A stretch of 35,006 bases of DNA, from positions 1 through 35,006 of the forward strand of contig JAQWBQ010000037.1 of the NCBI GenBank assembly GCA_028706295.1. Reading direction: 5' to 3'. A program made the position numbers and the translations under genes. Shown in pieces: positions 2,080 through 29,608 of the stretch. This DNA comes from Bacteroidales bacterium (GTDB taxonomy: Bacteria > Bacteroidota > Bacteroidia > Bacteroidales > FEN-979). The notes below the pieces were generated by a model that made no database searches, was not told where the DNA came from, and saw only the letters and a list, made by a program, of their open reading frames with translations. Each line of letters begins with the position of its first letter. Position 1 is the stretch's first letter.

Positions 2080-2103
2080 TGGACTAGCCCCGCTCCGGTA
2101 CTG

Positions 2104-5508: not shown

Positions 5509-5526
5509 TCCATAGAATTATTCCTG

Positions 5527-5534
5527 CAAATATA
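5527..5534 (-). promoter_or_regulatory. Candidate -7 element for the DUF4143 ATPase gene
   Basis: On the minus strand TATATTTG matches TAnnTTTG about 18 bp before the ATG at 5508. The -33 region is only a weak match (T/C-rich without TTTG). Confidence 0.5.
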
Positions 5535-5675
5535 AAAGAATGTTTTAATATTACGGGAAAAATTGAGTAATTTTGGTCGTTATAATGATAAACGGCGATA
5601 CAGTCAGGTTGGTCGACTATTACTGCCACAATTTCTTGGATACCTTTTGGGGAAATTACAGCTCAACTTGCATGT

Positions 5676-5706
5676 TTTGAAGTTTTATGGGAGTTTTCTA
5701 TCTTTG
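5676..5706 (+). promoter_or_regulatory. Bacteroidetes-type promoter for the LytTR regulator
   Basis: TTTG at 5676-5679 and TATCTTTG at 5699-5706 are exactly 19 bp apart. The ATG of the regulator follows at 5738, giving a leader of roughly 25 nt. The regulator therefore has its own promoter, independent of the kinase. Confidence 0.75.
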
Positions 5707-5737
5707 ACAGTCGAAGTAACCTTACATTTCTGTACTG

Positions 5738-6487: not shown

Positions 6488-6799
6488 ATTATCGCGTTCA
6501 ATGAAAAGGCCAGAATAAATCTATACTAATGCATTAGAACAAGAAAAGCCTAAAATCACATTGCATGGTCAATGATTTGGCATCAATCTTATGAAAATTC
6601 AATAGAATCAATCATCGTGCACTATAATTTTTCCCATTGTGCATAATCTTGGTTATTTTATTCTCATCGCATCCTTTTTCTACCACTAAGTTCGAAAATA
6701 ATCACTTCTCAACCATGAACGTTTTCTGATAAAGGAGATGTTAAAACCAAGGCATTGAAACCTTCTGTTTCACAATATGAAGGTTCAGAACCCATAGTT

Positions 6800-6830
6800 C
6801 CATCATAATACTGGTACTCCCATCATAATA
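6800..6830 (+). promoter_or_regulatory. Candidate LytTR operator (direct repeat)
   Basis: CCATCATAATA occurs at 6800-6810 and again at 6820-6830. The start-to-start distance of 20 bp is about two helical turns. LytTR regulators characteristically bind two direct-repeat half-sites about two turns apart. The repeat sits about 57-87 bp upstream of a candidate -7 element and next to a LytTR gene. The assignment is inferred; no consensus for this regulator is known. Confidence 0.4.
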
Positions 6831-6886
6831 AACAGAGATCTTCCTCAATATTTACTTGCATGTCAATATTCTGCGTTTTGTTATGC

Positions 6887-6894
6887 TATGTTTG
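6887..6894 (+). promoter_or_regulatory. Candidate -7 element for the giant repeat protein
   Basis: TATGTTTG matches TAnnTTTG and lies 55 bp before the ATG at 6950. There is no TTTG at the usual 19-bp spacing, so this promoter may depend on an activator. Confidence 0.5.
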
Positions 6895-6949
6895 GTACGT
6901 TCTCCAAAGAAGCAATCTCAAGCAATTTAACCTTTAATCAAAAAAAGCC

Positions 6950-9900
6950 ATGAAAACTGTCATCTTTAAAATTGTTGTTATTATTGGTTTTCTTATGATC
7001 AATTCTTTGAATATTAGCACACAGGCACAAGAGGTTACAATTTTTTCTGATAACTTCGAATCTCCTACTGCTTTTATAGCAAATTATTGGACATACGATG
7101 CAAATTCAAGTGGAACTGAATGTTATTGGTATGGAGTTTCTGATGCATTTTTTGGTGGCTTAACAATCCCAAATGCTCATTCCGGAACCCAGATGGCCTA
7201 TTGCGCAGGTGTTGGATATAGTGGAGTAGCGCTCCAACCATATTATCAGAACTATATGGATGCAAACATGCAAACAAAAGCAGGAGTAATAGATCTTACG
7301 AATTACCAAAGTGCTAAAATTAAATTTTACTACTACTTACAAGGCATTGATAATAGAGAATTTGGCCAGGTTGGATGGGATGATTATTTCCAGGTGTTGA
7401 TCACTGATCCTTCCGCTGTAAATTCAGTCGCTGTGACATGGTCCAATGGAGAAATAGCGACTGATGAGGAAACTTCAGATTGGACATATAAAGAATTTCA
7501 GATTCCATCACAATTTTTAGGGGACGAAGTAGTTGTTTATTTTCGATTTGTCTCAGATTATTATAATACTGACAATGGTGTTTGGGTTGATGACTTTAGT
7601 GTGGTCGGTGTACCGCTTTTAATCAGTGGCTATGTAAAAGACGCTAATAGTAATCCTATTGCAGGTGTAACATTGACGTTCTCAAATATCTCACCGGCAA
7701 CAGTCGTGACTAATAGCGCCGGATTCTACTCGAAAGAAATTCCGTATGGTTATTCAGGAATAGCCACCCCTTCAAAAGGTTGCTATACATTTTCACCGGT
7801 CAGTAAATCCTATTCAAATGTCACGACAAACCAGATAAATCAGAATTACACCGGGACCTTAGGAACCGTGACAATAAGCGGATATGTAAAGGATGCCAGC
7901 AGCACCGGGATTTCAGGGGTGACGCTAACTTTTACTAATGTGACCCCCAGTACAGTCGTTACAGATAACGCAGGATATTATTCGAAGACAGTTCCCTGTG
8001 GATATTCTGGTACAGCCACCCCTTCAAAAGATTGCTTTTCATTTTCGCCCGTCAGTAAACCATATTCAAACATTACGACAAATCAAACCAATCAGAATTA
8101 CACGGGGACCTTGGGAACCGTGACAATAAGCGGATATGTAAAAGATGCCAGCAGCACCGGGATTTCAGGGGTGACGCTAACTTTTACTAATGTGACCCCC
8201 AGTACAGTCGTTACAGATAACTCCGGGTATTATATTAAGACTGTACCCTGTGGATATTCGGGAACTGCCACTCCATCCAAGGTACAATGCACATTCACAC
8301 CGATAAACCGTAGCTATTCCAACTTGACAACAAATCAATCCGGCAAAGATTATACAGGGAGCTGCATAGGACCTACATATACAATTAGCGGATATATAAA
8401 AGATAGTCAACTTAATCCAATTTCTGGTGTCACTGTGACTTTCACAAATTTAACTCCAGTTAATACAGTACAGACTGATGCTTTAGGATTTTACTCAATG
8501 ACGGTTCAGTCAGGCTATACAGGATCAGCAACCCCGTCAAAGGTTGCATGCACATTCACCCCAGTAAACCGACACTATTCGAACGTAACAACAAATCAAT
8601 CCAATCAGGATTATACGGGTAGTTGTCCAATAAGTACAATTACCATTAGCGGCTATATAAAAGATAATCAACTTAGTCCAATTTCTGGCGTCACTGTGAC
8701 ATTCACAAATTTAACTCCAGTTAATACAGTACAGACCGATGCTTCAGGATATTACTCTATGACGGTTCAGTCTGGTTATACTGGAACAGCAACTCCTTCA
8801 ATGGGTGGATGCACATTTACCCCAGGTAATAGAAGCTATTCGAACGTAACAACAAATCAATTAAACCAAGATTATTCAGGCATCTGCCAAATTAGTAGCT
8901 CCCTGCCTTTTCAGGATTGTTTTGAATCCGGTGGATTTACGGCGGGAGGCTGGACAACATCAGGCAATGCACAGATAAGCACTTTGAATCCTTACGAAGG
9001 CATTTACTGTGTAAAAGGAGAAGGAACATATACCCTTGAAAAGATCATGTCCGGCATCACTGAGAACATAATTACAATTGAGTACGTGATGAAGGCATCG
9101 CAGGATGATAGAAATTGTGTTAATTTCAATGTGATGGACCCAAATGGCAACTTATCTGCATCGGTATTTTTTCGTTGGACAGGTAATATTGAAGCGTATA
9201 ATGGAGGGGGAGCTGCCAATTTAACGGTCTTGATGGCATACAATGCAGGTACATGGTATCAAATGAAAATAGTTTTAAATACATTAACCAAGAAATATGA
9301 TGTATATATTAATGGTGTACTTAAAGCAGACGATTTTAATTTTTATAACGCAACATTCAGTACTATTAATAAATTTCAATGGGGTAGCGGTGAATTTGAT
9401 GGCATCGGCTGGATTGATTGTGTAAACATGTATGGCAGCACCACTGGTCCAGTAATTTCTGGACAAATAAAAGATGCTGGTAATAATCCAATACCCGGGG
9501 CCACCGTCTCCTTCTCCAATATATCTCCTGGCACAACGCTTACCGATTCACTGGGAAACTATTCAATGACGGTTCCTTCCGGTTACTCAGGTATAGCTAC
9601 TCCATCGAAATCGTGCCATACTTTCATTCCAATAAGCAAAACCTATACGAATGTAACAAGTAATCAAACCAACCAAAACTATACTGGCACATTAGGAACG
9701 TTAACTATCAGTGGATACATTAAAGATGCAGCCAACACTGGAATTTCAGGGGTAACAATAACATTCACAAACGTTACTCCCACTACAGTGATCACGGATA
9801 ACACGGGCTATTACACAAAGACCGTTTCCTGTGGATATTCAGGACTCGCAATACCTTCTAAAGACTGTTATACCTTTACACCGCTTAACAGAAGCTATAG

Positions 9901-12832
9901 CAATGTAAGTGCGGACCAGACAAACCAGGATTATTCTGGCACACCTGGTTCAGTGGTAATTAGTGGTTATGTAAAGGATGGTAGTAATATTGGGATAGCA
10001 GGTGTCACATTAACCTTCACCAATGTGACACCCAGTACAGTGGTCACAGATAACAATGGCTTCTACAGCAAAACGGTTCCATGCGGCTATAATGGAATAG
10101 CAACCCCTTCAAAGGATTGTTATTCTTTTAATCCGGTTAATCGGACCTATACGAATGTGCTGACCAATCAGACAAACCAGGACTACACAGGTTCTTCAGG
10201 AACTGTAACCATCAGCGGGTATATAAAGGATGGCAGCAATATTGGGATATCAGGTGTTACATTAACCTTCACAAATGTGACACCAAGCACGGTGGTCACA
10301 GATAACAGTGGCTTTTACACGAAAACCGTTCCATGCGGCTATACTGGAATAGTAACGCCATCAAAGGATTGTTATTCTTTTAATCCGGTTAATCGTACTT
10401 ATACGAATGTCACGACCAATCAGACCAACCAAAACTACACCGGTTCTGCAGGCACCATCAATATCAGTGGTTATGTGAAAAATGGCAGTAATAATCCAAT
10501 TGCAGGCGTGACGCTGACATTCACAAATGTTACGCCTGGCACAGTGGTCACGGACAACAATGGTTTTTACACTAAAACAGTACAATGTGGTTATAGCGGT
10601 GTGGTAACTCCTTCAAAGGATTGCTATGCTTTTGTTCCTTTGAACAGGACCTATACTAATATCCAATCGACACAATCAGATCAGAATTACACAGGAACAC
10701 CTGGCTCAATTACAATCAGTGGCTATGTGAAGGATGCAGGAAATGCTCCTATTTCCGGAGTAACAGTCACTTTCACAAATGTAACACCAGGAACAGTTGT
10801 TACAGACAACAACGGATACTATTCCAAATCGTTTACTTGTGGTTACAGCGGAACAGCGACTCCCTCCAAAGATTGTTACTCATTTACCCCAACGAATAGG
10901 ACATACACAAACATAATTACCAACCAATCCGGTCAGGACTATACCGGTTCGTCTGGATCAGTAACTATAAGTGGTTACGTAAAAGATGCTGGCAGTCCAC
11001 CGATGCCGATACAAGGCGTTACTATCACATTCACCAATGTCACTCCTGGAACGGTCATTACAGATAACGCCGGGTTCTACACCAAGACAGTGCCATGTAA
11101 TTATTCCGGCACTGCTACTCCTTCGAAGGACAATTGCACATTCACTCCACTTAACCGCAGTTATTCCAACATAAATAGCAGTCAAGGCAATCAGGATTTT
11201 ACCGGAAATTGCCTCATTACGCCGAACCATTTCGTTCCTGTATGGTCCGGCAATCCGTTGGATCCAATGACGATTTCCTGCACCCAGGCATTGATACAGT
11301 CTGTATCGCTGGGAGCTAATGATGAAATCGGTATTTTCGACGGCGCCATCTGTGTTGGGGCTATTAAATTAACGCAGCCCATCAATCCGCAGAATTCCTC
11401 GACGTTTGTTTATATTCCCTGTTCCAAGGATGATCCGGGTACAACGGCAATTGATGGGTATACAGTCGGCCATACAATAACTTACAAACTTTGGAAACAT
11501 GAAACACAAGAGGAATGCTCTCAGGTAACAGTAACTTTCCCTTACGCGCCGACGGGTCAGTTCAGTGTGTTTACTGTTAATGAAACTGCAATTGTTTCGT
11601 TGGAGTGCGTGAATATATTTACACAGAACATTATTTTAAGCCAGGGTTGGAATATAATCTCATTCTATGTTTTACCGGTAAACATGAATATGCTTAATAT
11701 TTTGCAACCATTAATCACAGCCGGGAACCTGGTCAAGGTCATCGACGAGACCGGCGCAATTATTCAAAATATGCCCTGGGGTTGGGTAAATAATATTGGT
11801 GACATGGCTGTAACTGAAGGATATTATATAAAGGTTGCATCAGCATGTACGTTGACTGTCTCTGGAAATCTTGCACCTAGCCCGACACCTATCCTGCTGG
11901 CTGCAGGCTGGAATATTATGGGTTACCCATGTCAAAATCCCCAAAATGCGCTGACCGCTCTGCAACCATTAATAACTGCCGGAACCTTGGTCAAAGTTAT
12001 TAATGAATCTGGAGCCATCATTCAGAACATGCCCTGGGGTTGGGTGAATAACATTGGAGACTTCGTTGCAGGAGAGGGATATTATGTCAAGGTTAATACT
12101 GCAACCTCAATTACATTGACGAATCCTGTTTCGAAATCGACTACTTCTGAAAACAAAATGGTAACTAAACCGATGCATTTCGTTCAGCCGCAACCCGGGA
12201 ACCCTTATGGACCAATGGCAATAGCTATAGCAATTGCTCCTGATTTGTTTTCCAAATTGAGGATTGGTGATGAAATAGCAGTTTATGATGGTTCTCTTTG
12301 CGTAGGAGGTTTTGTGATCGATGGTAGTTCTAGCCGCAATGTAATTGTCACTGCATGGGCCGATGATCCACTGACTGATATTGTGGACGGTTTCGTCGAT
12401 TTCCGGCAGATATACTTCAGACACTGGTCGAAAATAAAAAATACTGAGTCGATACTCGATGTTCGTTATTTGCTTGGTGATGAAACATTTAAATCGTTAG
12501 GTACCTTTGTCGGTGAAGTTAAGGATTCACCCAATGGAATTGCAGATGGAGCCTCGGATCTCGCATTCCTGGGATATAATCATCCCAATCCATTTAGTGC
12601 CAATACCTGGATCGATTATTATCTTGGCCGACCTGCACAGGTTAAACTGACAATTTTCTCACCCATCGGTATCTGGATTGCAGAACTCGTTAATTCTTAC
12701 CAAGAGGCAGGGTCCTATTCCGTGTCATTTGCCAGGGACGACCTTGCTGTTGGGATTTATTTGTATAGAATTGAGATCAAAGGCGATGAACATTTCTACT
12801 ATGAAAAAACCCGCCGCATGATCGTGAAATAA
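6950..12832 (+). CDS. Giant T9SS surface protein with twelve ~84-residue carboxypeptidase-regulatory-like repeats
   Basis: The 1960-residue product begins with a signal peptide (about 1-27). A MAM/jelly-roll-like domain follows (about 28-220). Twelve Ig-like repeats begin with ISGYVKD or a variant and carry GYSGxATPSK: five start at residues 225, 309, 393, 479 and 566, and seven start at 836, 920, 1004, 1088, 1172, 1256 and 1340. A LamG-like domain (about 651-830) separates the two blocks. Next come a WSGNPLDPMTI module (about 1425-1555), two copies of a GWNII...PWGWVNNIGD...EGYY.KV unit (about 1563-1730) and a diverged second copy of the WSGNP module (about 1742-1860). The C-terminus is a T9SS type A sorting domain (HPNPFSANTWIDYYL to the end). 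The repeats resemble CarboxypepD_reg folds. The protein is probably exported and displayed as an adhesin or matrix protein. GC content is visibly lower than in the right half of the window. Confidence 0.9.
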   Translation: MKTVIFKIVVIIGFLMINSLNISTQAQEVTIFSDNFESPTAFIANYWTYDANSSGTECYWYGVSDAFFGGLTIPNAHSGTQMAYCAGVGYSGVALQPYYQNYMDANMQTKAGVIDLTNYQSAKIKFYYYLQGIDNREFGQVGWDDYFQVLITDPSAVNSVAVTWSNGEIATDEETSDWTYKEFQIPSQFLGDEVVVYFRFVSDYYNTDNGVWVDDFSVVGVPLLISGYVKDANSNPIAGVTLTFSNISPATVVTNSAGFYSKEIPYGYSGIATPSKGCYTFSPVSKSYSNVTTNQINQNYTGTLGTVTISGYVKDASSTGISGVTLTFTNVTPSTVVTDNAGYYSKTVPCGYSGTATPSKDCFSFSPVSKPYSNITTNQTNQNYTGTLGTVTISGYVKDASSTGISGVTLTFTNVTPSTVVTDNSGYYIKTVPCGYSGTATPSKVQCTFTPINRSYSNLTTNQSGKDYTGSCIGPTYTISGYIKDSQLNPISGVTVTFTNLTPVNTVQTDALGFYSMTVQSGYTGSATPSKVACTFTPVNRHYSNVTTNQSNQDYTGSCPISTITISGYIKDNQLSPISGVTVTFTNLTPVNTVQTDASGYYSMTVQSGYTGTATPSMGGCTFTPGNRSYSNVTTNQLNQDYSGICQISSSLPFQDCFESGGFTAGGWTTSGNAQISTLNPYEGIYCVKGEGTYTLEKIMSGITENIITIEYVMKASQDDRNCVNFNVMDPNGNLSASVFFRWTGNIEAYNGGGAANLTVLMAYNAGTWYQMKIVLNTLTKKYDVYINGVLKADDFNFYNATFSTINKFQWGSGEFDGIGWIDCVNMYGSTTGPVISGQIKDAGNNPIPGATVSFSNISPGTTLTDSLGNYSMTVPSGYSGIATPSKSCHTFIPISKTYTNVTSNQTNQNYTGTLGTLTISGYIKDAANTGISGVTITFTNVTPTTVITDNTGYYTKTVSCGYSGLAIPSKDCYTFTPLNRSYSNVSADQTNQDYSGTPGSVVISGYVKDGSNIGIAGVTLTFTNVTPSTVVTDNNGFYSKTVPCGYNGIATPSKDCYSFNPVNRTYTNVLTNQTNQDYTGSSGTVTISGYIKDGSNIGISGVTLTFTNVTPSTVVTDNSGFYTKTVPCGYTGIVTPSKDCYSFNPVNRTYTNVTTNQTNQNYTGSAGTINISGYVKNGSNNPIAGVTLTFTNVTPGTVVTDNNGFYTKTVQCGYSGVVTPSKDCYAFVPLNRTYTNIQSTQSDQNYTGTPGSITISGYVKDAGNAPISGVTVTFTNVTPGTVVTDNNGYYSKSFTCGYSGTATPSKDCYSFTPTNRTYTNIITNQSGQDYTGSSGSVTISGYVKDAGSPPMPIQGVTITFTNVTPGTVITDNAGFYTKTVPCNYSGTATPSKDNCTFTPLNRSYSNINSSQGNQDFTGNCLITPNHFVPVWSGNPLDPMTISCTQALIQSVSLGANDEIGIFDGAICVGAIKLTQPINPQNSSTFVYIPCSKDDPGTTAIDGYTVGHTITYKLWKHETQEECSQVTVTFPYAPTGQFSVFTVNETAIVSLECVNIFTQNIILSQGWNIISFYVLPVNMNMLNILQPLITAGNLVKVIDETGAIIQNMPWGWVNNIGDMAVTEGYYIKVASACTLTVSGNLAPSPTPILLAAGWNIMGYPCQNPQNALTALQPLITAGTLVKVINESGAIIQNMPWGWVNNIGDFVAGEGYYVKVNTATSITLTNPVSKSTTSENKMVTKPMHFVQPQPGNPYGPMAIAIAIAPDLFSKLRIGDEIAVYDGSLCVGGFVIDGSSSRNVIVTAWADDPLTDIVDGFVDFRQIYFRHWSKIKNTESILDVRYLLGDETFKSLGTFVGEVKDSPNGIADGASDLAFLGYNHPNPFSANTWIDYYLGRPAQVKLTIFSPIGIWIAELVNSYQEAGSYSVSFARDDLAVGIYLYRIEIKGDEHFYYEKTRRMIVK
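7622..8890 (+). repeat. First block of 252-261 bp tandem repeats (five units)
   Basis: Unit starts at 7622, 7874, 8126, 8384 and 8645 encode ISGY(V/I)KD. The segments 7856-7970 and 8108-8222 are nearly identical at the DNA level, with about two differences including silent changes. This indicates a recent duplication or conversion between units 2 and 3. Units 4 and 5 form a second closely related pair. Confidence 0.85.
9455..11219 (+). repeat. Second block of 252-bp tandem repeats (seven units)
   Basis: Units start at 9455, 9707, 9959, 10211, 10463, 10715 and 10967, each exactly 252 bp after the last. The final unit carries a few extra codons (SPPMPIQ). Each unit encodes an ~84-residue repeat, usually with two Cys residues (CGYSG and DCY or variants). 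The units at 9959 and 10211 are especially close in DNA sequence. Confidence 0.88.
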
Positions 12833-12840
12833 GAGGAATG

Positions 12841-12888
12841 CAAATCACCGTATCATATGGCATTAACAACCTGTGATACGGTGATTTG
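12841..12888. terminator. Strong stem-loop after the giant repeat gene
   Basis: CAAATCACCGTATCA at 12841-12855 is perfectly complementary to TGATACGGTGATTTG at 12874-12888, giving a 15-bp stem with an 18-nt loop. It starts nine bases after the stop codon and sits before the next plus-strand gene. There is no clear U-tract, so it could be a terminator, an mRNA-stabilising hairpin or a processing site. Confidence 0.6.
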
Positions 12889-12905
12889 TTACAAAAACTG
12901 TTTAA

Positions 12906-14348
12906 ATGAAATGTAAAACAATATTTATGGAAAAGAAATTCAGGCATAATAGACCGCATTCAATGGTTATAGTTCTGATGTTATTTGCTTCTTTATTTCC
13001 CTTATTATCAAGGGCCTCGCATTTTACAACAGTGTGGTCCGGAAATCCTTTTGATCCTATGACAATAATTGTGACGGGGGCTGTTTTTGATGGAACAAAT
13101 TTAATTGCAGGTGATGAAATTGGCTTATTTGACGGCGCTTATTGTGTTGGAATGGGAACTATCGCGGCAGCTATAAATCCAGCAAATTCGGCTACATATT
13201 TGTACATAATTTGTTCAAAGGATGATCCAGGTACAACGGGTATTGAAGGTTATACTGCTGGAAATCCAATAACCTATAAATTATGGAAACAGTCAAACAG
13301 TTCGGAATGTGCCAATGTTATAGCAACATTTCCATTTTCGCCAATCGGCGTATTTACTACTTTCACAGTCAACGAAACTTCTATTGTTGCCTTGTCTTGT
13401 TCAACAACGCTACCAGGACCTCATTTTACAAAAATCTGGAGTGGTAATCCACTGGATCCCATGACAATTGTTGTCACCCAGGCAATGGTCGACGGGATTA
13501 ACCTGATGACTGGAGACGAGATAGGTATTTTTGATGGTAATCAATGTGTAGGCACTGTCATTCTTACAGCCCCGATTAATCCTCAGAACTCGGGTTCATT
13601 TGTTTTTATTGTATGTTCTAAAGATGATCCTGGAACCACAAATATTGATGGATATACTTCTGGAAATCCGATTTTATATAAACTCTGGAATCAATCGACA
13701 GCACAAGAAGTTACCGCCAATGCAACATTCCCGTATGCGCCAACCGGAGTCTTTCAGCAATTCACAATCAATGAAACAGCAATTGTGTCTTTGTCTGGCA
13801 ACAATGTCCCGGCGAACCTGCAAGTAACTAATGTAATTGTTACATCAGGCCAGAACAATTGCTATAATGCAACACAAATAATTACTGTTGCAGGAGCCGG
13901 AACATTTTTTAATGTTCAGAGTGGAGGGGCTGCCACGTTTATTGCAGGTCAAAAAATTTCGTTTCTACCCGGAACTGTTGTAAATTTTGGGGGACAACTT
14001 TTAGCTCAAATCTCTACTAATGAAAATTATTGTAGTAATGTTTCATATTTGGCAGTCAATTTGTCTGGCCCTGAAGGGAAACAACATCTCGATTCAATAA
14101 TACCTGGAAAGTTTATTTTGTACCCAAACCCAACCTCGAATTTTTTTACAATTGAGTTTAATGGTGATGAACGGAATTTAGTTAAATGTGTAACGATTCT
14201 TAATAGCTATGGAGACATAATACTTTCAAAAAAAATATTAGGAAATGGAAAATTGCAAATTAACCTTCAGGAACAAATCCCTGGATTATATTTCATAAAA
14301 ATACTGATGAACGGGCAAATTCGAATAGCAAAAATTTCAAAAATATAA
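12906..14348 (+). CDS. T9SS surface protein with two WSGNP modules
   Basis: The 480-residue product has a signal sequence; the hydrophobic core follows MEKKFRHNRPHSM, so ATG 12927 is an equally plausible start. Two consecutive ~130-residue modules follow (roughly 38-170 and 176-300). Each contains WSGNPxDPMTI, GDEIGxFDG, C-V-G, a PxN-rich turn, CSKDDPGTTxIxGYTxGNPIxYKLW and a closing NE(T)xIVxLS. The same module occurs twice in the neighbouring giant protein. A linker with a lipid- or sugar-binding look (about 305-385) precedes a T9SS type A sorting domain with the YPNPTSNFFTIEF motif. No function is known for the module. Proximity and shared modules suggest the two genes arose by duplication and act together at the surface. 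Confidence 0.87.
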   Translation: MKCKTIFMEKKFRHNRPHSMVIVLMLFASLFPLLSRASHFTTVWSGNPFDPMTIIVTGAVFDGTNLIAGDEIGLFDGAYCVGMGTIAAAINPANSATYLYIICSKDDPGTTGIEGYTAGNPITYKLWKQSNSSECANVIATFPFSPIGVFTTFTVNETSIVALSCSTTLPGPHFTKIWSGNPLDPMTIVVTQAMVDGINLMTGDEIGIFDGNQCVGTVILTAPINPQNSGSFVFIVCSKDDPGTTNIDGYTSGNPILYKLWNQSTAQEVTANATFPYAPTGVFQQFTINETAIVSLSGNNVPANLQVTNVIVTSGQNNCYNATQIITVAGAGTFFNVQSGGAATFIAGQKISFLPGTVVNFGGQLLAQISTNENYCSNVSYLAVNLSGPEGKQHLDSIIPGKFILYPNPTSNFFTIEFNGDERNLVKCVTILNSYGDIILSKKILGNGKLQINLQEQIPGLYFIKILMNGQIRIAKISKI

Positions 14349-14576
14349 CATAAGTCCCTGAAGATGCACTTAAAGGGTTTTAATCCGGTAATTTTTTACC
14401 AGACAGTCGTTTCTGTAAGTCGTTTTTTGGTGGGGGTACATTTAAATAATGATTACGAGTCAAAAGATTACTATCATAATGAGTGGAGATATGAATTCAA
14501 TTAAATTTAGTTTAACAACTTTTCTTCCACCTTCATAAATGTAAACCGCCCTAATGACAGAAACCATTTTCAGTCA

Positions 14577-15209
14577 TCATTTTCTTCCGAAGTCAGCGGG
14601 AATCTCGCCCCAGTATTCTGTTTCCCATTTGAGCACCCGGTTCTTGTATTCATGTTCCTTCAGCCATTTCAGGGCGCGGCCGACCAGGTTAAAAAGTTCC
14701 CGGTTTTTCGGCGAAGGTTCCAGATTGGTATTGATGGCTTTTTTACGAACCCAGGCGATGGCGGTTCGCGAGTCGGAATAAACCGGCCAATTGCTTTCCC
14801 TTTGTTTCAGGTAGGCCAGGGCGTGGACAATTGCCAGAAATTCTCCCAGGTTAACGGTACCTTGCGGGAAGGGGCCGATCCGGAACAGTTCCGCGCCCGA
14901 TCGGGTATCGACCCCGCGGTATTCGAGCACACCCGGGTTTCCCGAACAGGCAGCATCGACACAAATGCTATCGGCAATGGGCTCCCCGATCAACGGATTG
15001 CTACAGACGATCTTTTTCGGGCTGTTCAGTTTTTTCGACAGATATTTCGAAGGGTCATCGTTCAGCGCGCTCTGCGCCAGCTCCCGGGTCGGGAAACCCC
15101 TGAACAACGCACCGTTGAACCCCTCGACCTGTTTGCGGCAATCGGCCCATCCTTCGTAGATCCCGGGCTGCTTCCCCTGCCAGACCACATAAAATTTATT
15201 TTTTGGCAT
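14577..15209 (-). CDS. Ribonuclease H with N-terminal viroplasmin domain
   Basis: The 210-residue product has an N-terminal caulimovirus viroplasmin domain (about 4-50; FYVVWQGKQPGIYEGWADC, then FNGALFRGF). This domain binds RNA-DNA hybrids. A type 1 RNase H domain follows (about 78-208). The four catalytic acidic residues appear intact: Asp85 in CVDAACSGNPG, Glu123 in NLGEFLAIVHAL, Asp146 in YSDSRTAIAWV and Asp206 near the end (EIPADFGRK). It would cleave RNA in RNA-DNA hybrids in the cytoplasm. The gene diverges from the flippase gene across an 84-bp gap, and TATCTTTG on the minus strand at 15226-15233 serves as its likely -7 element. Confidence 0.94.
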   Translation of the reverse strand: MPKNKFYVVWQGKQPGIYEGWADCRKQVEGFNGALFRGFPTRELAQSALNDDPSKYLSKKLNSPKKIVCSNPLIGEPIADSICVDAACSGNPGVLEYRGVDTRSGAELFRIGPFPQGTVNLGEFLAIVHALAYLKQRESNWPVYSDSRTAIAWVRKKAINTNLEPSPKNRELFNLVGRALKWLKEHEYKNRVLKWETEYWGEIPADFGRK

Positions 15210-16799: not shown

Positions 16800-16806
16800 T
16801 GTGATA

Positions 16807-16988
16807 ATTGATTTATTGATTGACTGAATGACTGATTGACTGAATGACTGATTTATTGATTTATTGATTGACTGAATGACTGAATGACTGATTTATTGAT
16901 TGACTGAATGACTGATTGACCGAATGACTGATTTATTGATTTATTGATTGACTGAATGACTGATTGACCGAATGACTGAACGACTGAA
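16807..16988. repeat. Tetramer/octamer micro-repeat array (TGAN type)
   Basis: About 22 consecutive 8-bp units, almost all TTGACTGA, ATGACTGA or TTTATTGA with a few C substitutions, keep strict register over 180 bp. It lies between the flippase stop and the dut promoter. Related arrays are at 27143-27185, 32551-32626 and 33226-33290. Confidence 0.9.
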
Positions 16989-17029
16989 AATCCATAGTCT
17001 TCATTTTCCATTTTCAATTCTTTTCCCGT

Positions 17030-17160
17030 CCGCTCTTCGTCCGCTAGTCCGCTAGTCCGCTAGTCCGCTCTTCGTCCGCTAGTCCGCTAGTCCGCTCTTC
17101 GTCCGCCCGTCCGCCCGTCCGCCTGTTCCCGTCCGCTTGTCCGCTTGTCCGCCCGTCCGC
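17030..17160. repeat. GTCCGCNN micro-repeat array
   Basis: A GC-rich array of GTCCGCTA, GTCCGCTT and GTCCGCCC octamers with occasional longer units (GTCCGCTCTTC). It directly follows the TGAN array and stops ten bases before the dut -7 element, so it occupies the -33 region. Composition is unlike the adjoining array, although the unit length is also 8. Confidence 0.88.
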
Positions 17161-17169
17161 ATTTTTTAA

Positions 17170-17177
17170 TACCTTTG
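17170..17177 (+). promoter_or_regulatory. Candidate -7 element for dut
   Basis: TACCTTTG lies 16 bp before the ATG at 17194. The -33 region is made of GTCCGC repeats and offers only CTTG at 22-bp spacing. Confidence 0.5.
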
Positions 17178-17193
17178 TAACAAATTTGACTGA

Positions 17194-19451: not shown

Positions 19452-19475
19452 ACGGACAGAAAAATCAAGATCAGG

Positions 19476-19505
19476 CAATAGGCAATAGGCATTAGGCAAT
19501 AGGGA
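19476..19505. repeat. GGCAATA heptamer array
   Basis: Four units in 7-bp register (GGCAATA, GGCAATA, GGCATTA, GGCAATA) in the gap between the TPR and DUF4292 genes. It ends about 25 bp before the ATG of the latter. Confidence 0.75.
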
Positions 19506-19529: not shown

Positions 19530-20417
19530 ATGTCAAAATTCAAAGTTTACCCGTTCACCCACTTTCCTGCTTTCCGTTTTCTGTTTTCCGTTTTCCATTT
19601 TCCATTTTCCATTGTCAATTATTCCTTGTCCATTATTTTCCTCCTCCTGCTCTTCTCCTGCAGCCCGACCCGCAGCGTGATGAAAGCCCCGCTGAAGGAA
19701 GAGGGCGCTGATTATCTTTTTGAAAAGCTTAAGGAAAAAGAGCTGAAATACGACTGGCTTTCGGCCAAATTCTCGGCTACATACACCAACCAGGGAAAAG
19801 AGACCAGTTTCAGCGGACAATTACGCATCCGCAAGGACAGCCTGATCTGGATTTCGCTCACCCCGATGTTGGGGATTGAGGCCATCAGGCTGATGATCTC
19901 CGTTGATTCGGTGAAGATGATCAACCGGCTCAACAACACCTGGTTTATGGGCGATTATGAATATCTGAACCAGGTATTGAACACCAACCTCGATTATGAC
20001 CTGCTGCAGGCATTTCTGCTGGGCACCGACCTTCAGTTTTATGAAAACGGGAAGTTCAGGGCCTCCATCGACCGGGGATTTTATAAACTCTCGACCAGTG
20101 AGCGGTACAAGCTGAAGAAATTCGTCAAATCGGGCCATGAGAATCTCAAGATCCTGATCCAGAATATCTGGCTTGATCCCGAAACCTTCAAGATCACCCA
20201 TACCGACGTCAAGGAGATTCGCCGCGATAACATCAAACTTGAATCATCTTACAGCGCGTTTGAATCCATTGATGGGCAGATGGTACCCCACGAGATGCGT
20301 TATATCATCTGGGCCGACAACACCATCCGGGTGCAGGCCACCTTTTCGAAGATCGTGCTCGGGAATCCCCTTCAGTTTCCCTTTAAAATTCCGGCGAGTT
20401 TCCGGCAAATCAAGTGA
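19530..20417 (+). CDS. DUF4292 lipoprotein
   Basis: The 295-residue product has a lipobox LLFSC with Cys44. It continues as a DUF4292-type beta-rich envelope protein resembling the LolA/LolB-like fold (SFSGQLRIRKDSLIWISLTP, then a middle DLLQAFLLG and a C-terminal PFKIPASFRQI). A role in outer-membrane lipoprotein handling is often suggested for such folds, but it is not demonstrated here. The signal peptide is unusually long, and residues about 14-37 are encoded by a TTTTCCA heptamer array, the same class of repeat found between genes. No later start leaves a functional signal, so the array must be translated if the protein is exported. The stop overlaps a GTG of the next reading frame. Confidence 0.88.
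   Translation: MSKFKVYPFTHFPAFRFLFSVFHFPFSIVNYSLSIIFLLLLFSCSPTRSVMKAPLKEEGADYLFEKLKEKELKYDWLSAKFSATYTNQGKETSFSGQLRIRKDSLIWISLTPMLGIEAIRLMISVDSVKMINRLNNTWFMGDYEYLNQVLNTNLDYDLLQAFLLGTDLQFYENGKFRASIDRGFYKLSTSERYKLKKFVKSGHENLKILIQNIWLDPETFKITHTDVKEIRRDNIKLESSYSAFESIDGQMVPHEMRYIIWADNTIRVQATFSKIVLGNPLQFPFKIPASFRQIK
19570..19640. repeat. TTTTCCA heptamer array inside the DUF4292 signal peptide
   Basis: Successive 7-bp units TTTTCCG, TTTTCTG, TTTTCCG, TTTTCCA, TTTTCCA, TTTTCCA then decaying ones. The array is translated as a Phe/Ser/His/Ile-rich stretch. Similar units occur around 17002-17025 and, reverse-complemented, at 21905-21930. Confidence 0.85.
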
Positions 20418-21856: not shown

Positions 21857-21867
21857 TTAGACAAAAA

Positions 21868-22064
21868 ATTGACAATGGACAATGGACAATGGACAATGAA
21901 AGGAATTGAGAATGGAAAATGGAAAATTGAAAACGGGTGAACGGAAAAATTTTGAATTCCTTTTCCCTATTCGCTAATCGCTAATATCTGATCCCTTATG
22001 TTGGCTATTCGCTATTCCCTATTCGCTATTCGCTATTCGCTAATCGCTAATATCTGATCCCTTA
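21868..22064. repeat. Composite micro-repeat region before the permease gene
   Basis: Begins with AATGGAC heptamers (21868-21896), then GAATGGAAAATG-like units (to about 21935), then ATTCGCT/ATTCCCT heptamers. A 32-bp stretch at 21967-21998 is repeated exactly at 22033-22064. The array ends two bases before the TTG start of the next gene. Confidence 0.85.
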
Positions 22065-23050: not shown

Positions 23051-23520
23051 CTCCCTCCCCTTCATGGGCTACTCTTTATAAAGTCTATAGGACCTCACCC
23101 CGGCCCTCTCCTTCAAGGAGAGGGAGACCCTCTACCTGTAAGAAAAAAGGGATCATTACAAAAACCTCAGTATCATAATACCAAAACCTTTCATCACTCC
23201 ATCTCGTTGTTCTTCATGTTGTTTCCGGTCAGGTCTGTCATGTACCGGACCATCAACTTCGATTACAAGTCTTGTTTCATGACAATAGAGATCAGAAGGC
23301 AGAAAAAATACGTGAATGTTGAAAACTTATCATATTTTCTGGTAAAGTCATATCAAATTCCGAATACAGAATTCGCTGAACTGCGGTAATATCAACAATA
23401 TAAATGTTTTTGTTTTGGTTCAGAGTTTCCCTCTCCTTGAAGGAGAGGGCCGGGGTGAGGTCATATGGGCTTTTGGAGAATGTGTATAAAGAGTAACCCT
23501 TCAAGGGGAGGGCGGGGAGG
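23051..23520. mobile_element. Inverted-repeat-bounded element carrying a decayed DUF559 gene
   Basis: The perfect 35-bp inverted repeats are at 23091-23125 and 23428-23462. Each has an inner palindrome (CCCTCTCCTTGAAGGAGAGG on the right). Outside them a second, imperfect inverted pair lies at 23051-23080 and 23485-23520 (CCCTCCCCTT, then ACTCTTTATA or its complement). Between the arms are about 300 bp whose minus strand encodes the second half of a DUF559 endonuclease. The structure suggests a small non-autonomous mobile unit, or a formerly mobile one. No flanking target duplication was identified by eye. Confidence 0.65.
23156..23504 (-). pseudogene. Decayed DUF559 (Vsr-like) endonuclease gene
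   Basis: A first minus-strand frame (23504 to 23292) starts in the right inverted repeat and reads DLTPALSFKERET, the translation of the repeat. It ends before any catalytic motif. In another frame, about 23300 down to the stop at 23156, the DNA encodes DLYCHETRLVIEVDGPVHD followed by RDGVMKGFGIMILRFL. This is the conserved second half of DUF559 proteins, with the VIEVDGxxH core. The N-terminal half of the domain and the usual C-terminal tail are missing and the frames differ, so the gene is broken. Confidence 0.75.
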
Positions 23521-23532
23521 AGTCATAAACCC

Positions 23533-23572
23533 GCCCCGAAAACATCAACTGGCTTAAAGGGGATAAGCAGTT
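23533..23572. repeat. Dispersed 40-bp repeat, copy 1
   Basis: Matches 34712-34751 with one difference. It contains the short hairpin GCTTA-AAGGGGA-TAAGC. It directly follows the DUF559 element. Confidence 0.8.
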
Positions 23573-23588
23573 TTAAACATTTCTCAGG

Positions 23589-23885: not shown

Positions 23886-26800
23886 TCAGTACCCGGGCGC
23901 CTGTTTTCGGATGATCAGCTTCCGGGTGAACGGAGTTCCCGATGTCGTTACAGTCAGCAAATATACACCATCGGGAGCAGTATTCAGATTGATTTTTTTG
24001 ATCCAGGTCGCCGGATGGCGGTGGATTATTTCGTGAAACACCACCGACCCGTTTGCATCGTGGATGGTCAGGGTGACGGGTTCATCCGCCAGGGTATGCA
24101 TCCCGATCAGGAACCGGCCATCTCCCGGGTTGGGCCATACCCGGATGGTTTCCAGTTGCGGCTCCTCAATACCCGTACAGTTTTTAAAGGTAATCACGAC
24201 GGAATCCTTTGCGGAACAGGAGAAGCGGTTCATGACGGTAAGGCGGTACCAGTAACTTCCCATCCCGCCGGTCGCTGCCGTATCGACTGTGATCTCCGGC
24301 GTGGTCATCCCCCCGGGGATCCACCGGTAGGCTGCAATCCCGGCGGTATCGGCTGCGAGGAGGATTGCGTTGCCGGCACATACGGTATCGTAAGGCGAAA
24401 CCGTGATGAAGGCGTGTGGCAGCGGGCGGATGGTGATCACCTTGTTCTTCGCCATGCTGCCATACTTCCCGTAGCCTGTAAGCCGGAGTGTGGCGGTTCC
24501 TTCAATGATGTCGAGGGTGCCGGGCGTGTAAACGGTATTCAGCGCGGTATCATTGGCAAATACACCATCACCGAGGGTGGTCCACCGGATGGAATCGTAC
24601 TGCGATGCCGTGGCTTGAAGCGGTACCAGCTTACCGGCACAAAGGGTGTCGGCCGGGCCCGGATCGACAGCCGGGAGTACCGGTGGCGGGAAGGCGATAA
24701 AATCGACCCAGGCTTTGTCGAGCCCGTACGTAAATGCCAGATCCTTACGGTAGATCCATTTGTACTGGTGCAACCCGGCGGCAACAGGAAAGGCAACCCG
24801 CGTCCAGGGGGTCTCTCCCGACCATTGACCCTGCGTCACGTTATCAATCTGAAAGATCAGGAAGTCGTACCCCTGTTCGCTCGAGGTCCTCAAAAAGAAG
24901 GAGATCGAATCATCGGCAGCCGATTCATAGGTGACGAACATCTGGGAGCTCTGGTAGTCGGAGATGGCCCCCGACTGCGCGCAATACGCCCCTTCCCAGG
25001 GATTCACATCCGTGATGGTCCAGGGGAGCGTACCCATCTGCTGCCAGGGGAACCGGGTAAAGGAATTGCTTTCCCAGTCTTCGGCCACCACGCCGATGAT
25101 CTCACGGAATGTACCATGCGCGTTATACCCTCCCGAGATCAACCGGTAATACAGGTCCACGGCGCTGCCCAGGGGTGCATCTGCATCAACCACTGCCGTG
25201 AATGCTGCCGGTTTCACAGCGCCCGGGAGGAGGGTGCCGAGGAAAGTACTGTCGGAAAGCAGCGTCAGGTAAGGAGAAAGGATGGTTAATTGTCCCGATG
25301 TCAGCAGGCAGGAGAAATCACCGCTGTTTTTATTGGTGAAAATGAGTTCGACGGTCTCGCCCGGGTCCATGCGGCCATTTGAATTTCCGCCGGCGCTGTC
25401 GTTCACCGATAATCCCGTAATCCGGGGCGCCGGCGCCCTTGATTCTACGGCAAAATGGCTGTACCACACCGAGTCGGGCGTCGAGGCCCTGACGTCGAAG
25501 CGTACCGGCACCCCGTCGGGGATGGTATCGGAGACTTTCAGGGTGAATCCGTTCACCACCGTTCCGACTGCTCCGGCCGCGATGGCGCCATAAAACGCGG
25601 TGCTGTCGGTGATCTCCACAAGGGGCGAAGGGGAGGAGAGTGTTGCAGCAACCTCCTGGGCCGGCTGGTCGCCGATGTTCTTCAAACCGAGCGTCAGATA
25701 GAGGGAGTCGCCAAAGGTCAGCCCCCCGGATTCACGGTTCCTGAACCTTGCGGATGTTGTAAGTTCCCCGGTTACCGCTGTTCCTGTGACGGGTGACTTC
25801 AGGAGGGGCACAGGCGCGAGCGAGTCGGAATAATAGACCACCCAGGGTTGGTTGGGATTCGGGCCCAGGTCGAAGGGCGAGACATACGACATGGCTCTTC
25901 CCTGGTGGTTGCTGGTAAAGATGGGATAGACCTTCATATTCCGCGACTGGATGCCGATATAATCGCCGAAGTAGTTGTAGGGCAGTCCGGGAATCGGCGC
26001 AGGAGTAAACTGGTAGTCGCTCACCTGAAAGTCGGTCCAGATAAGGCCGCCGTCCCACGAACAGGAGACGAAAACGGCGACTTCGCCCGGGCCCGCGTTG
26101 CGGTCGTCGTAATAAATCACGCACAGTCCGCCGGTAACCGGATCGCAGGTGATCCAGGGAAAGAAGTGCTGTTTGCCCAACCCGGGCGGATCCTGATTTA
26201 CCCGGACAGGCGCCGACCAGGTATCGCCCCCGTCGGCGCTGCGGATCAGATAAATATCGATATCGGTGCCGGTATTGACGCCCGGGAATCCCACGTTGGG
26301 AAAGACCACGTAGAGGGTACCCCGGTGCGGACCGGTACTGTTGTCAACCGCCATGGACGGAAAGGCGTTGACGCGCATCTGCTTTGCAGTGAGGGATGCC
26401 CTTATCCCTTTGATGTTGTTGATGATCCTGACGGCCGGGGTAAAGATCCCGCCGCCATCCAGCGATTTGGAAAAACCGATGGCTGTTTCATCGGCAGGCC
26501 ATGCATCGTAGATGCTCCACACTGCGTAAACCTCGCCAGACGGGCCGGTATGCAGGTTGACCCCGTGATTCAGATTCAGGGCGCCGGCCCCCTGGCTGAT
26601 TCCCACCGGCGAGGACCAGGAGAGTCCGTGGTTGGCCGACCGGGAAACCTGGATCTGCAAGCTGTCGGGCGACCCGGGCATAAAGTTGGTCCAGGCATCA
26701 TAGAGATAGCCTTCATAAGGACTTCCCGGGGTGTTGTCGATCCACAAATGGTTCTTGTCGAGCAGCCCGTCGCCTGCGACCGGACCGTTGGCAACCACGA

Positions 26801-27797
26801 CACGGGTCCACGTCTTTCCCTTGTTTTTGCTGTAGGATACCGACTGTCCCGACGTCGCGTCGATCTTTCCGACGTACCACCAGCCGTTGGTACCGATGGC
26901 GGATGCCGGATCGCCCTGGTTGGTACCCCCGGCGCCACGCGTAGTCCCCTGCCAGCTCATCCCCCAATCGGAGGTGTGCAGCGCATCCGCGCCATATAGA
27001 TCCTCGGCAAAGCCTACGATCCAACTGCTTGAGTTGTTGCTGTTGAGCGCTACCGACTCATCCTGCGGATCGATGAATACCGAATTTTCACTCTGGGTCA
27101 CCTCCGTTTCGCCGGTCACCGGAATGTCGGGAGAAAAAAGAATGATTGACTGAATGACTGATTGACTGAATGATTGATTTGAATTTTTTTCCCTGATTCC
27201 TGATTCCCAAGGCCCAATGCCTGATTTTGAATTTTGAACTTTACCCGGTTCATAAGCCCTGATCTCCGTCCCGGTAAAAGTTCCGGGGGGTACCTTCACG
27301 GCGGAGGTTGGCAAAACATACCCCTTCTTCATCATCCGCCGCCAGTATCCCATGTTGTCGATCCGGGTATCGACTTTTCCTTTGCCGGCAATGGTCACTT
27401 CGACAACCGCACGGATGGTATCGCTCCCCTGATTTATTAATCGCTCCGGGTTAGTTCCCGGCTGCTTGCAACGGAATCCGGAGCCGGAACTTGTATCCAG
27501 GTTCATACCGTTGATTCGCTTCCGGATTAATTCCCCGCTGCCTACTGCGGAGTCATTCACCCGTGAACCAAGCGTTGCCTCCGGTTCTGTGTTTTTAACA
27601 CGATCATGTGCCGTATTGGGAATCGCATCTGTGACTTGCATCAAGACGGAAACCCGGCTGAAAACAGGGAATCCAATGAATTCTAACCCGGCTGGAAAGG
27701 TCATTGCGGGAATCATCGCTCCGGCCAATGGGGACGGAACAAGATAAACCAGAATGAATAACAGGATGGCTGTAAATTGGATTCCGCGTTGGCTCAT
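23886..27797 (-). CDS. T9SS surface protein with sialidase-like (BNR/Asp-box) domain
   Basis: The 1303-residue product begins with a signal peptide (about 1-28) and an uncharacterised, low-complexity N-terminal region to about 250. A sialidase-like propeller follows (about 255-640) with repeated Asp boxes: SKNKGKTWTRV, SANHGLSWSSPV, SADGGDTWSAPV and SWDGGLIWTDF. Next come CARDB-like beta domains (about 690-880), a jelly-roll domain (about 895-1040), two PKD/Ig-like domains each starting with a (T)LCAG or TVCAG motif (about 1050-1205) and a T9SS type A sorting domain with VWPNPGDGRFLIG. Catalytic sialidase residues were not confirmed, so the propeller may only bind ligands. Residues about 187-218 are encoded by an intergenic-type micro-repeat. 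Its stop abuts a TonB-receptor fragment. Confidence 0.9.
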   Translation of the reverse strand: MSQRGIQFTAILLFILVYLVPSPLAGAMIPAMTFPAGLEFIGFPVFSRVSVLMQVTDAIPNTAHDRVKNTEPEATLGSRVNDSAVGSGELIRKRINGMNLDTSSGSGFRCKQPGTNPERLINQGSDTIRAVVEVTIAGKGKVDTRIDNMGYWRRMMKKGYVLPTSAVKVPPGTFTGTEIRAYEPGKVQNSKSGIGPWESGIREKNSNQSFSQSVIQSIILFSPDIPVTGETEVTQSENSVFIDPQDESVALNSNNSSSWIVGFAEDLYGADALHTSDWGMSWQGTTRGAGGTNQGDPASAIGTNGWWYVGKIDATSGQSVSYSKNKGKTWTRVVVANGPVAGDGLLDKNHLWIDNTPGSPYEGYLYDAWTNFMPGSPDSLQIQVSRSANHGLSWSSPVGISQGAGALNLNHGVNLHTGPSGEVYAVWSIYDAWPADETAIGFSKSLDGGGIFTPAVRIINNIKGIRASLTAKQMRVNAFPSMAVDNSTGPHRGTLYVVFPNVGFPGVNTGTDIDIYLIRSADGGDTWSAPVRVNQDPPGLGKQHFFPWITCDPVTGGLCVIYYDDRNAGPGEVAVFVSCSWDGGLIWTDFQVSDYQFTPAPIPGLPYNYFGDYIGIQSRNMKVYPIFTSNHQGRAMSYVSPFDLGPNPNQPWVVYYSDSLAPVPLLKSPVTGTAVTGELTTSARFRNRESGGLTFGDSLYLTLGLKNIGDQPAQEVAATLSSPSPLVEITDSTAFYGAIAAGAVGTVVNGFTLKVSDTIPDGVPVRFDVRASTPDSVWYSHFAVESRAPAPRITGLSVNDSAGGNSNGRMDPGETVELIFTNKNSGDFSCLLTSGQLTILSPYLTLLSDSTFLGTLLPGAVKPAAFTAVVDADAPLGSAVDLYYRLISGGYNAHGTFREIIGVVAEDWESNSFTRFPWQQMGTLPWTITDVNPWEGAYCAQSGAISDYQSSQMFVTYESAADDSISFFLRTSSEQGYDFLIFQIDNVTQGQWSGETPWTRVAFPVAAGLHQYKWIYRKDLAFTYGLDKAWVDFIAFPPPVLPAVDPGPADTLCAGKLVPLQATASQYDSIRWTTLGDGVFANDTALNTVYTPGTLDIIEGTATLRLTGYGKYGSMAKNKVITIRPLPHAFITVSPYDTVCAGNAILLAADTAGIAAYRWIPGGMTTPEITVDTAATGGMGSYWYRLTVMNRFSCSAKDSVVITFKNCTGIEEPQLETIRVWPNPGDGRFLIGMHTLADEPVTLTIHDANGSVVFHEIIHRHPATWIKKINLNTAPDGVYLLTVTTSGTPFTRKLIIRKQAPGY
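27143..27240. repeat. Micro-repeat array embedded in the BNR protein gene
   Basis: On the plus strand TGACTGAATGACTGAT-type tetramers run from 27143 to about 27185. CTGATTC and similar units follow, then TTTTGAA units. Read on the minus strand it encodes a segment including NSNQSFSQSVIQSII without interrupting the frame. It is the same family as the intergenic arrays at 16807, 32551 and 33226. Confidence 0.85.
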
Positions 27798-29455: not shown

Positions 29456-29501
29456 AAACTGCGGCGTGTTTGAGGAGCGAAGCGACGAGTTTCCGCAGTT
29501 T
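29456..29501. repeat. Palindromic REP-like element
   Basis: AAACTGCGG (29456-29464) and CCGCAGTTT (29493-29501) are exact inverted copies around a GAGGAGCGAAGCGACGAG core, itself partly palindromic. It resembles extragenic palindromes that occur in multiple copies in some Bacteroidetes. Copy number could not be checked. Confidence 0.6.
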
Positions 29502-29553
29502 AGCGAATGACGATGATTTTTAGTGAATTTCCGGAAGCGGTGAGTTTTCTTTG

Positions 29554-29608
29554 CTTCTTTCTTTTGATGGCAGCAAAAGAAAGAAGAGATAACAGCAAAA
29601 GAAAGAAG
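29554..29608. repeat. 13-bp hairpin plus direct repeat (AAAGAAAGAAG element)
   Basis: CTTCTTTCTTTTG (29554-29566) pairs with CAAAAGAAAGAAG (29574-29586). CAGCAAAAGAAAGAAG at 29571-29586 is then repeated at 29593-29608. On either strand this could act as a terminator-like hairpin between the CNNM gene and the glycosyltransferase gene. Confidence 0.65.

Follow-up and report, generated by a model that had tools for sequence, protein, structure and literature searches.

Polar arrays of short repeat words at the gene borders of a Bacteroidales genome

The question raised by this locus is what the degenerate arrays of 4-, 7- or 8-nucleotide units in the gaps between its genes are, and how they came to lie there. 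An initial annotation of the window (i.e. the whole stretch of 35,006 nucleotides analysed here, contig C71 of a source genome of 3,994,337 bases in 149 contigs, 95.6% complete) had read them as a dispersed, self-propagating system tending to end at start codons and possibly tuning expression through leader or promoter spacing or, alternatively, as neutral slippage in a lineage with weak repeat clearance. The arrays belong to a known kind of bacterial repeat, the layout of which is here unusual.

Arrays of the window and their words

Arrays had been listed at eleven places in the window, and all eleven were recovered by Tandem Repeats Finder at the threshold used for these calls (score of at least 30). 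According to our own gene calls, which are home-made and wrong for some starts and small genes, the window has 16 intergenic regions of at least 30 b (6,285 b in total). These hold 11 arrays of period 4, 7 or 8 at score 30 and eight at score 36, compared with means of 0.55 and 0.05 in 20 dinucleotide shuffles. The 1.08 Mb of the genome that were sampled (51 pieces, 1,081,705 b, 471 intergenic regions of at least 30 b) contain 141 such arrays at score 36, compared with 1.1 in 10 dinucleotide shuffles. The smallest period is 4 (n = 20), 7 (n = 77) or 8 (n = 52) in 149 of 196 intergenic arrays, other values including 14 or 16 (n = 12), 11 (n = 11), 9 (n = 5) and 6 (n = 1); in coding sequence, periods of 9 and 12 are as frequent as 7. 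Eight contigs of the sample had been picked for TGAN matches, and when counts were redone without them and without the window, period 4, 7 or 8 was found in 56 of 79 arrays. Tandem copies of a 5–11-nt unit are therefore present beyond chance, as in long simple sequence repeats of the heptamer-rich intergenic kind.

Each word consists of a fixed core and one to three variable register positions, most other positions being 87–100% conserved; since families were assigned by consensus unit with change allowed at some positions, differences between arrays are partly constrained by the assignment, those between units within an array are not. Aligned in register, the words are TGA[T/A]TGA[C/T/G] (33 arrays), AAT[G/T]GA[C/A] (18), [C/G][C/G]CTA[A/T]T (16), TTTGA[N][C/T] (13), GATT[T/G]A[C] (12), CTGAAAC[C/T] (11) and GCGGAC[N][A/G] (3). 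The units are thus as initially given, except that TGAN acts as an octamer, TGA[T/A]TGA[C/T/G]. The description of a strict register within which point mutations accumulate was misleading as to accumulation, variation being mainly at the one to three register positions of each word. Mixed ancestral arrays or a constraint acting on the core could each account for a fixed core with the same variable positions. The seven consensus profiles contain no GGG run, the feature by which a potential for G-quadruplexes was judged.

When 47 fuzzy copies of one word core were read with their flanks in samples of this genome and of a sister species (G006, taken to be the genome of SACF01000033.1), the arrays appeared as parts of one composite. 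Outward from the gene, it consists of modules Z (GCGGACnn), A (GATTTAC), B (TGANTGAN), C (AATGTGCT) and D (ATTTGARR) or E (AATKGAV), then a stretch such as TTTTGAATTATTTTTT, followed by F (SSCTAWT) and G (TTTGANY).

In the window (coordinates below are Tandem Repeats Finder spans unless stated otherwise), an AATGGAC heptamer array of module E, truncated by the window edge (1-25, + strand), lies upstream of an S66 peptidase ORF at 49 (Pfam Peptidase_S66), the start of which is likewise preceded by an array of AATGGAC words in the sister. A short CGTAAAT array of module A (961-995, – strand; program span 961-976 with 2.3 copies, the weakest of the window) follows a stop at 948 and breaks the outward rule described below. 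A long TGA[T/A]TGA[C/T/G] array of module B (16809-16988, + strand; periods of 8, 32, 40 and 48) runs outward from a Polysacc_synt gene (Pfam) ending at 16799. At the other side of the same gap, a GTCCGCNN array (17028-17160), which is module Z (GCGGACnn) on the – strand, runs outward from the start of a dUTPase gene (Pfam dUTPase) at 17194. Between this GTCCGC array and the dUTPase start, TACCTTTG is found at 17170-17177, as it is in the sister, and resembles the Bacteroidetes –7 promoter element, TAnnTTTG. Further along, an AGGCAAT array, an F-type word in antisense (19473-19503, – strand), begins 22 b past the stop of a TPR gene. A TTTTCCA array, module E in antisense (19559-19634, – strand; program span 19571-19634), is placed after the ATG of ORF 19530-20417 (DUF4292), in its N-terminal stretch.

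The stop of an M23 peptidase gene at 21856 is followed by an AATGGAC/AATGGAA/AATTGAA array of module E (21865-21933, + strand) and then by CTATTCGC/CTAATCGC arrays of module F (21958-22064, + strand; program span 22004-22049), i.e. in composite order. Inside the longest reading of ORF 23886-27797, a TGAATGAC array precedes CCTGATT and ATTTTGA arrays (27143-27242, + strand, modules B and F/G-like; program span 27143-27179). A TCAN array, module B in antisense (32556-32625, – strand), runs outward from a start at 32629. Three arrays within 33177-33320, all on the – strand, form one antisense composite anchored on the right-hand gene, with TAGGGAT (33177-33209, module F), AATC (33231-33290, module B) and, nearest to the gene, TCGTAAA (33289-33320, module A), so that the order outward is A-B-F. 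It is, with the E-then-F sense composite of 21865-22064, one of the two clear composites of the window. Lastly, a TTCCCTA/CGCTATT array of module F (34764-34807, + strand) adjoins a MITE-like palindromic element. Neither an Rfam family at gathering score nor a tRNA was found in the window.

Placement and polarity at gene borders

Arrays hug gene borders, in the source genome stops above all. The tandem-repeat search and the comparison with random placement, both proposed in the initial annotation, revealed arrays on other contigs too and a placement that is non-random with respect to genes and enriched at stops, rather than random placement or confinement to one contig. Within 30 bp of stops there are 52 of 154 arrays, compared with 15.5 expected in random intergenic DNA and 30.8 within the same regions, and within 30 bp of starts there are 26 (19.7 and 28.1 expected). 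The sister is enriched at both ends, with 15 of its 66 arrays near starts (7.3 and 9.6 expected) and 17 near stops (6.0 and 8.8). In two congeners, G008 (16 arrays; seven near starts, nine near stops) and G009 (23 arrays; six and 13), starts and stops are all enriched relative to random gaps (for starts, 7 versus 1.4 and 6 versus 2.1). Same-gap chance at starts (5.4 and 6.0) is not exceeded, and the same-gap test shows enrichment only for the stops of G009 (13 versus 8.4, p 0.022). The tendency to end at start codons therefore holds for some arrays of the window and, as described below, for one gene in 12 of 17 congeners, but not for the source genome at large.

Array density in the source genome is 1.35 and 1.56 per kb in co-directional gaps, 0.92 in convergent and 0.35 in divergent ones. 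With starts at chance, stops enriched and divergent gaps so sparse, the tuning of expression through leader spacing is unsupported as a general role. Most intergenic regions are array-free (77 array-bearing regions, with 401 regions of at least 60 b), and arrays are overdispersed among contigs (97.5 versus a mean of 39), of which accessory regions could be the cause. As regards phase variation, one window array (19559-19634) lies in a reading frame, and placement favours stops. On contig C87, which carries polysaccharide and AAA_14/DUF4143 genes, and in L068, several genes terminate inside modules A/B. Three genes share the terminal junction ACAAAT-TGA-TTTACG; in the sister, one of them has the same end followed by a different series of blocks, and its relative in G009 stops two residues earlier, without junction or modules.

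Most words hold one orientation relative to the nearest gene border, whatever the direction of the gene. Within 40 bp of a border, 27/27 TGAN arrays, 11/11 AATnGAn, 10/10 of the AGCGAAT group and 3/3 GCGGAC run outward, a count from whose word families 72 of the 154 arrays fall out; the CTGAAAC word is the exception (1/6 outward). A test blind to the words gave the same picture, since 242 of 258 pairs of arrays with the same word in different regions agree within 40 bp (random flips average 0.50), as do 451 of 670 at all distances and, among the pieces picked without regard to TGAN, 50 of 53 within 60 bp. Elsewhere, agreement is weaker in the sister (20/28), and is 7/7 in G009 and 1/4 in G008. 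When modules are counted instead, those from Z to E that lie no more than 60 bp from a border face outward in 66 of 71 cases for the source genome and 29 of 34 for the sister, where module A is split (two outward, three inward).

The polarity is also visible as a strand skew. Read in RNA sense, 71 of 89 arrays lying up to 60 bp from a stop have more G than C, and 33 of 39 at starts have more C than G, with the same direction, in small numbers, in G009 (11/14 and 5/7) and G008 (5/8 and 5/7). Array-free DNA beside stops has no such skew (G 0.216, C 0.213). Part of the effect at starts is general, because array-free DNA there is also G-poor (C 0.190, G 0.149). Stop codons are concerned too: their density in arrays at stops is 0.097 outward versus 0.047 inward (array-free control, 0.047 and 0.046), and all three frames contain one in 44 of these 89 arrays outward and 19 inward, compared with 17 and 14 of 39 at starts. 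Tolerance or use of stop-bearing words can thus explain part of the polarity at stops and little of it at starts. Stop codons would account for many of the words at stops, but as the only cause of the polarity they were rejected, since AATGGAC and GATTTAC, which have no stop in that sense, keep the polarity and the excess at starts is slight. A hairpin formed by one word flanking both sides of a gap was likewise discarded, because the two sides mostly carry different words (L075 is an exception).

Module order and comparison with relatives

The order of the composite is a preference with exceptions. Among nearest pairs of modules, scored with nine module patterns, 157 of 164 are on the same strand and the seven others all face each other, as would two composites starting from two borders. 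B precedes F (TGAN before CTAATCGC) in 15/15 cases and G in 14/14. When Z was included and the linker left out, at least two kinds of module were counted in 38 regions, 31 of them with all modules on one strand (13.1 expected); 27 of the 31 are in order, although these counts are descriptive and partly fitted, the patterns having been drawn up after reading this genome. The sister, an only partly independent sample in this respect, gives 15 of 19 (6.5 expected) and 12 of 15. Exceptions in the source genome amount to seven regions with modules on both strands and four one-strand regions with broken order, and 40 of 78 module-bearing regions hold a single kind. In co-directional gaps, 17 composites are in sense and eight in antisense.

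Dispersed copies with ordered modules are what BOX/MITE-like elements have. Inspection by eye of the 47 copies and of nine of the 70 intergenic pairs orthologous with the sister revealed no terminal inverted repeat, target duplication, constant 3′ end or clean empty site. Of the system initially described as dispersed and self-propagating, dispersal stands, since words recur across many intergenic regions mostly in one order and strand; neither a clean empty site nor a terminal repeat or enzyme that would speak for self-propagation was seen.

The sister is close (its TPR protein, from SACF01000033.1, is the nearest relative of the window's, 97% identical). Its record and the corresponding MAG (L009) are labelled Alphaproteobacteria, against the labels of the other 20 of 21 named relatives of the TPR gene, which are Bacteroidales, Bacteroidetes, Fermentimonas or Draconibacterium. 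The comparison of unit numbers with a close relative, also proposed initially, showed that the sister keeps most sites with lengths that often differ by whole units. Among the 70 orthologous pairs, 12 have an array in either species and nine of these in both, and a length difference of at least 7 b is seen in 11 of the 12 array regions versus six of 58 array-free ones. The sister has 42 b (six heptamers) more at 19473 and 14 b (two heptamers) less at 22004; a further difference, of 35 b, is again in heptamers, and the additional 36 b at 27143 are in the 4-nt TGAN register. Such whole-unit variation between relatives is typical of long simple sequence repeats. Other changes are not multiples of the Tandem Repeats Finder unit (a difference of 8 b at 19571, and 16 b absent from the sister at 961). 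The array at 19559-19634 has another length in the sister, where the reading frame is maintained. The sister array at 32556-32625 is shorter, and the gap 16800-17193 is rebuilt between the two species, the sister having a short TGAN array and an expanded TTTGCTGA-type array at the 16809-16988 site and few units left of the 17028-17160 array. Arrays as breakpoints of gene order were unsupported at this sample size (synteny with the sister sample broken in 1 of 11 array regions versus 7 of 53 others).

Exact copies of CGCTATTCGCTAAT number 44 in the source genome, 31 in the sister and none in the other 17 congeners, and one to three copies are present in each of six genomes from further genera within the family. 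The long TGAN pattern is patchy, being found in 16 of 100 genomes (248 matches in the source genome, 196 in G006 and 238 in G009). In distant genomes there are single sites only, for the CTAATGTGC word in 1 and for AATTGAC in 5 of 246 other genomes, and a search of viral contigs with one core word gave no match. The dUTPase and TPR genes overlap by 4 b in the source genome and in the sister, leaving no gap. Of 17 congeners, 12 have a heptamer array that reaches to within 5 nt of the candidate TPR start and, by eye, fills the short dUTPase–TPR gap from the stop codon of a dUTPase-like frame, with the words AATTACG, AATTACA, AATTAAA, AATTGAA, TACAAAG and AAATGTG. Such a set of words at a single site suggests that the period may persist while the word drifts in place, copying between sites being unnecessary. 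Past the TPR stop, an array exists in only four of 19 genus members, i.e. the source genome, the sister, G009 (CGTAAAT, 9 b) and G008 (GGTCATT, 27 b). L036 has a larger duplication upstream of the TPR start, which takes in the end of the upstream frame.

Origin of the arrays and relation to known repeats

The reading that we favour, tentatively and with a confidence that falls a little short of even, makes the arrays modules of a dispersed intergenic repeat specific to the lineage, in which slippage would drive growth and ectopic exchange the spread. Dispersal, preferred order, polarity and whole-unit length change are observed. Slippage by units would lengthen or shorten blocks and let a word drift as a whole, while ectopic exchange between intergenic regions, by gene conversion or recombination on shared blocks, would copy blocks and composites and, as happens in satellite DNA, keep words uniform within a lineage. 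The outer limit of arrays would be set by coding sequence, and words with stop codons in all frames would be best tolerated after genes. The comparisons made, with nine of the 70 orthologous pairs viewed, caught no exchange event, and what looks like drift in place in the congener dUTPase–TPR gap counts against a need for exchange. The finding that congener arrays are mostly at the TPR start slightly lowers the odds of slippage with exchange and raises those of local slippage and of leader regulation. We see the arrays as mainly tolerated or selfish sequence, affecting untranslated regions as a by-product, more than as a regulator at start codons. Loops of 7–8 nt are poorly recognized by mismatch repair. 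As for the neutral slippage initially put forward, whole-unit differences from the sister agree with slippage as the source of length change, but the idea of weak repeat clearance is unsupported, as the genome encodes two MutS-domain proteins. Avd-like four-helix-bundle proteins (PF05635) were rejected as makers of arrays because their counts do not track them (eight in the source genome, 11 and 12 in the array-rich G006 and G009, and 12 and 22 in G018 and G019, both without a TGAN match). One PF05635 ORF (23S rRNA-intervening sequence protein, E 4.4e-13), missed by the gene calls, lies between TGAN and TCAN arrays at L075 10329-10718.

Could the composite instead be mobile? BOX elements are built of modules boxA, boxB and boxC, one of which is repeated, and a non-autonomous element of the BOX/MITE kind might transpose as a unit, whole or by its 5′ end GCGGACAAATTGATTTACG, with a preference for gene ends and the micro-arrays as internal modules of variable copy number. 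The mostly fixed module order in both gene-relative orientations and the shared terminal junction of three genes would fit, but the copies and pairs viewed have none of the hallmarks of transposition listed above and about half of the module-bearing regions hold one kind of module only, so that we consider such an element unlikely. Slightly less probable still is a model in which, in a repeat-tolerant lineage, each site slips on its own and words drift in place without being copied from one site to another. It fits the whole-unit differences from the sister, and in-place drift predicts related words at one site such as the congener TPR leaders. The recurrence of words, with their variable positions, at many sites in mostly one order and strand is something that it does not predict and argues against it.

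Selection could also act on the arrays. They might be gene-border elements whose outward strands insulate genes, for instance through effects on 3′ ends, through a block on antisense transcription or through stop codons provided in every frame. The outward polarity at both gene ends, which array-free stops lack, the doubled outward density of stop codons at stops, the gene stops supplied by modules and the same polarity described in Xanthomonas and Nostoc (PMC4692102) are in line with this, but one main word core is absent from 17 congeners and most intergenic regions manage without arrays, which makes it quite improbable. Least credible, and very unlikely in our judgement, is the initial suggestion of regulators of leader or promoter spacing beside start codons. 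Two window arrays end about 4 and 34 bp before a start (at 32625 and 17160), the sister has more arrays near starts than expected, those of G008 and G009 exceed any-gap though not same-gap chance, and the TPR starts of 12 congeners are closely preceded by arrays. Against it stand the chance frequency at starts in the source genome, where stops are enriched instead, and the low density between divergent genes. At single genes, as with the congener TPR leaders, such a role may exist.

Several known systems come near. The short tandemly repeated repetitive sequences of cyanobacteria are heptamers. Closest in layout are the intergenic GGGNATC heptamers of Xanthomonas and Nostoc, which adjoin the 5′ neighbouring ORF whatever its orientation (Rehm et al., 2015; PMC4692102). 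In the accessible text of that paper they share with the present arrays the scarcity between divergent genes, the outward polarity (here too the repeat strand lies beside the 5′ neighbouring ORF in any orientation) and sites mostly kept with changes in length, but are of one G-rich word type that forms quadruplexes in vitro and has no ordered multi-word composite, whereas the main words here lack a GGG run. The TAACTGA direct repeats of Beggiatoaceae, Cyanobacteria and Bacteroidetes are mostly located just upstream of starts in the main genome treated, with larger assemblages of different heptamers in Elizabethkingia and other heptamers in Gramella and A. sublithincola (MacGregor 2015; PMC4679880). 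They too are intergenic heptamers near gene borders with a patchy distribution, and the congener TPR-start arrays resemble their start-anchored sets, but the portion of the paper available describes one main word and neither a module order nor an outward rule. The BOX elements of Streptococcus pneumoniae, which are likewise small, intergenic and dispersed and have been judged parasitic, have extensive secondary structures (PMC3049150), whereas the modules here are micro-satellites without Rfam match. The tandem repeats of Borg elements are likewise fast-evolving and some are intergenic, but are said to arise independently (PMC9879509), unlike the shared and ordered words of this lineage. No description of an ordered multi-word composite was found among the papers listed by searches of the open-access literature.

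Some bacterial genomes are rich in heptamer repeats, a period that still lacks an explanation. In the present genome, the set of words, their preferred order and the outward polarity at either end of genes are all countable, and differences between close species at shared sites make the mutation process directly watchable. Should the polarity prove general, which the agreement with Xanthomonas and Nostoc suggests, it would point to a rule of intergenic growth beyond models of slippage only or transposition only. A syntax shared by these distant bacteria and this Bacteroidales lineage, in which tandem words of 7–8 nt begin at the edges of genes and extend outward along one fixed strand, the vocabulary being replaced per lineage while period, polarity and (here) order persist, seems doubtful at present. 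If true, intergenic DNA would have to be extended or converted away from genes by a polar copying process not yet known.

Other features lie beside the arrays. The MITE-like palindromic element, with GATAAGCAG ends and a G/C-rich stem, is found at 23497-23574 and 34650-34764, and related copies are present in array gaps of the sister. A 13.2-kb stretch (1370-14580), partly of low G+C and encoding a 1,960-residue multi-domain protein (CarboxypepD_reg, Big_1), is replaced in the sister by 187 b (L009 6703-6889) between flanks that are 96% identical; ORF 6950-12832 contains coding tandem repeats of ~252–261 bp at 7700-10633. About 140 b of intergenic DNA at ~29466-29607, without Rfam match, are unchanged in the alignment of the two species amid surroundings that differ. 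Finally, the motif CTTCGACARGCTCAGT has eight copies in the sample, several of them beside arrays (L101 3658, 3708, 5228, 8961 and 18493; L068 7192; L079 4387; L105 2508).
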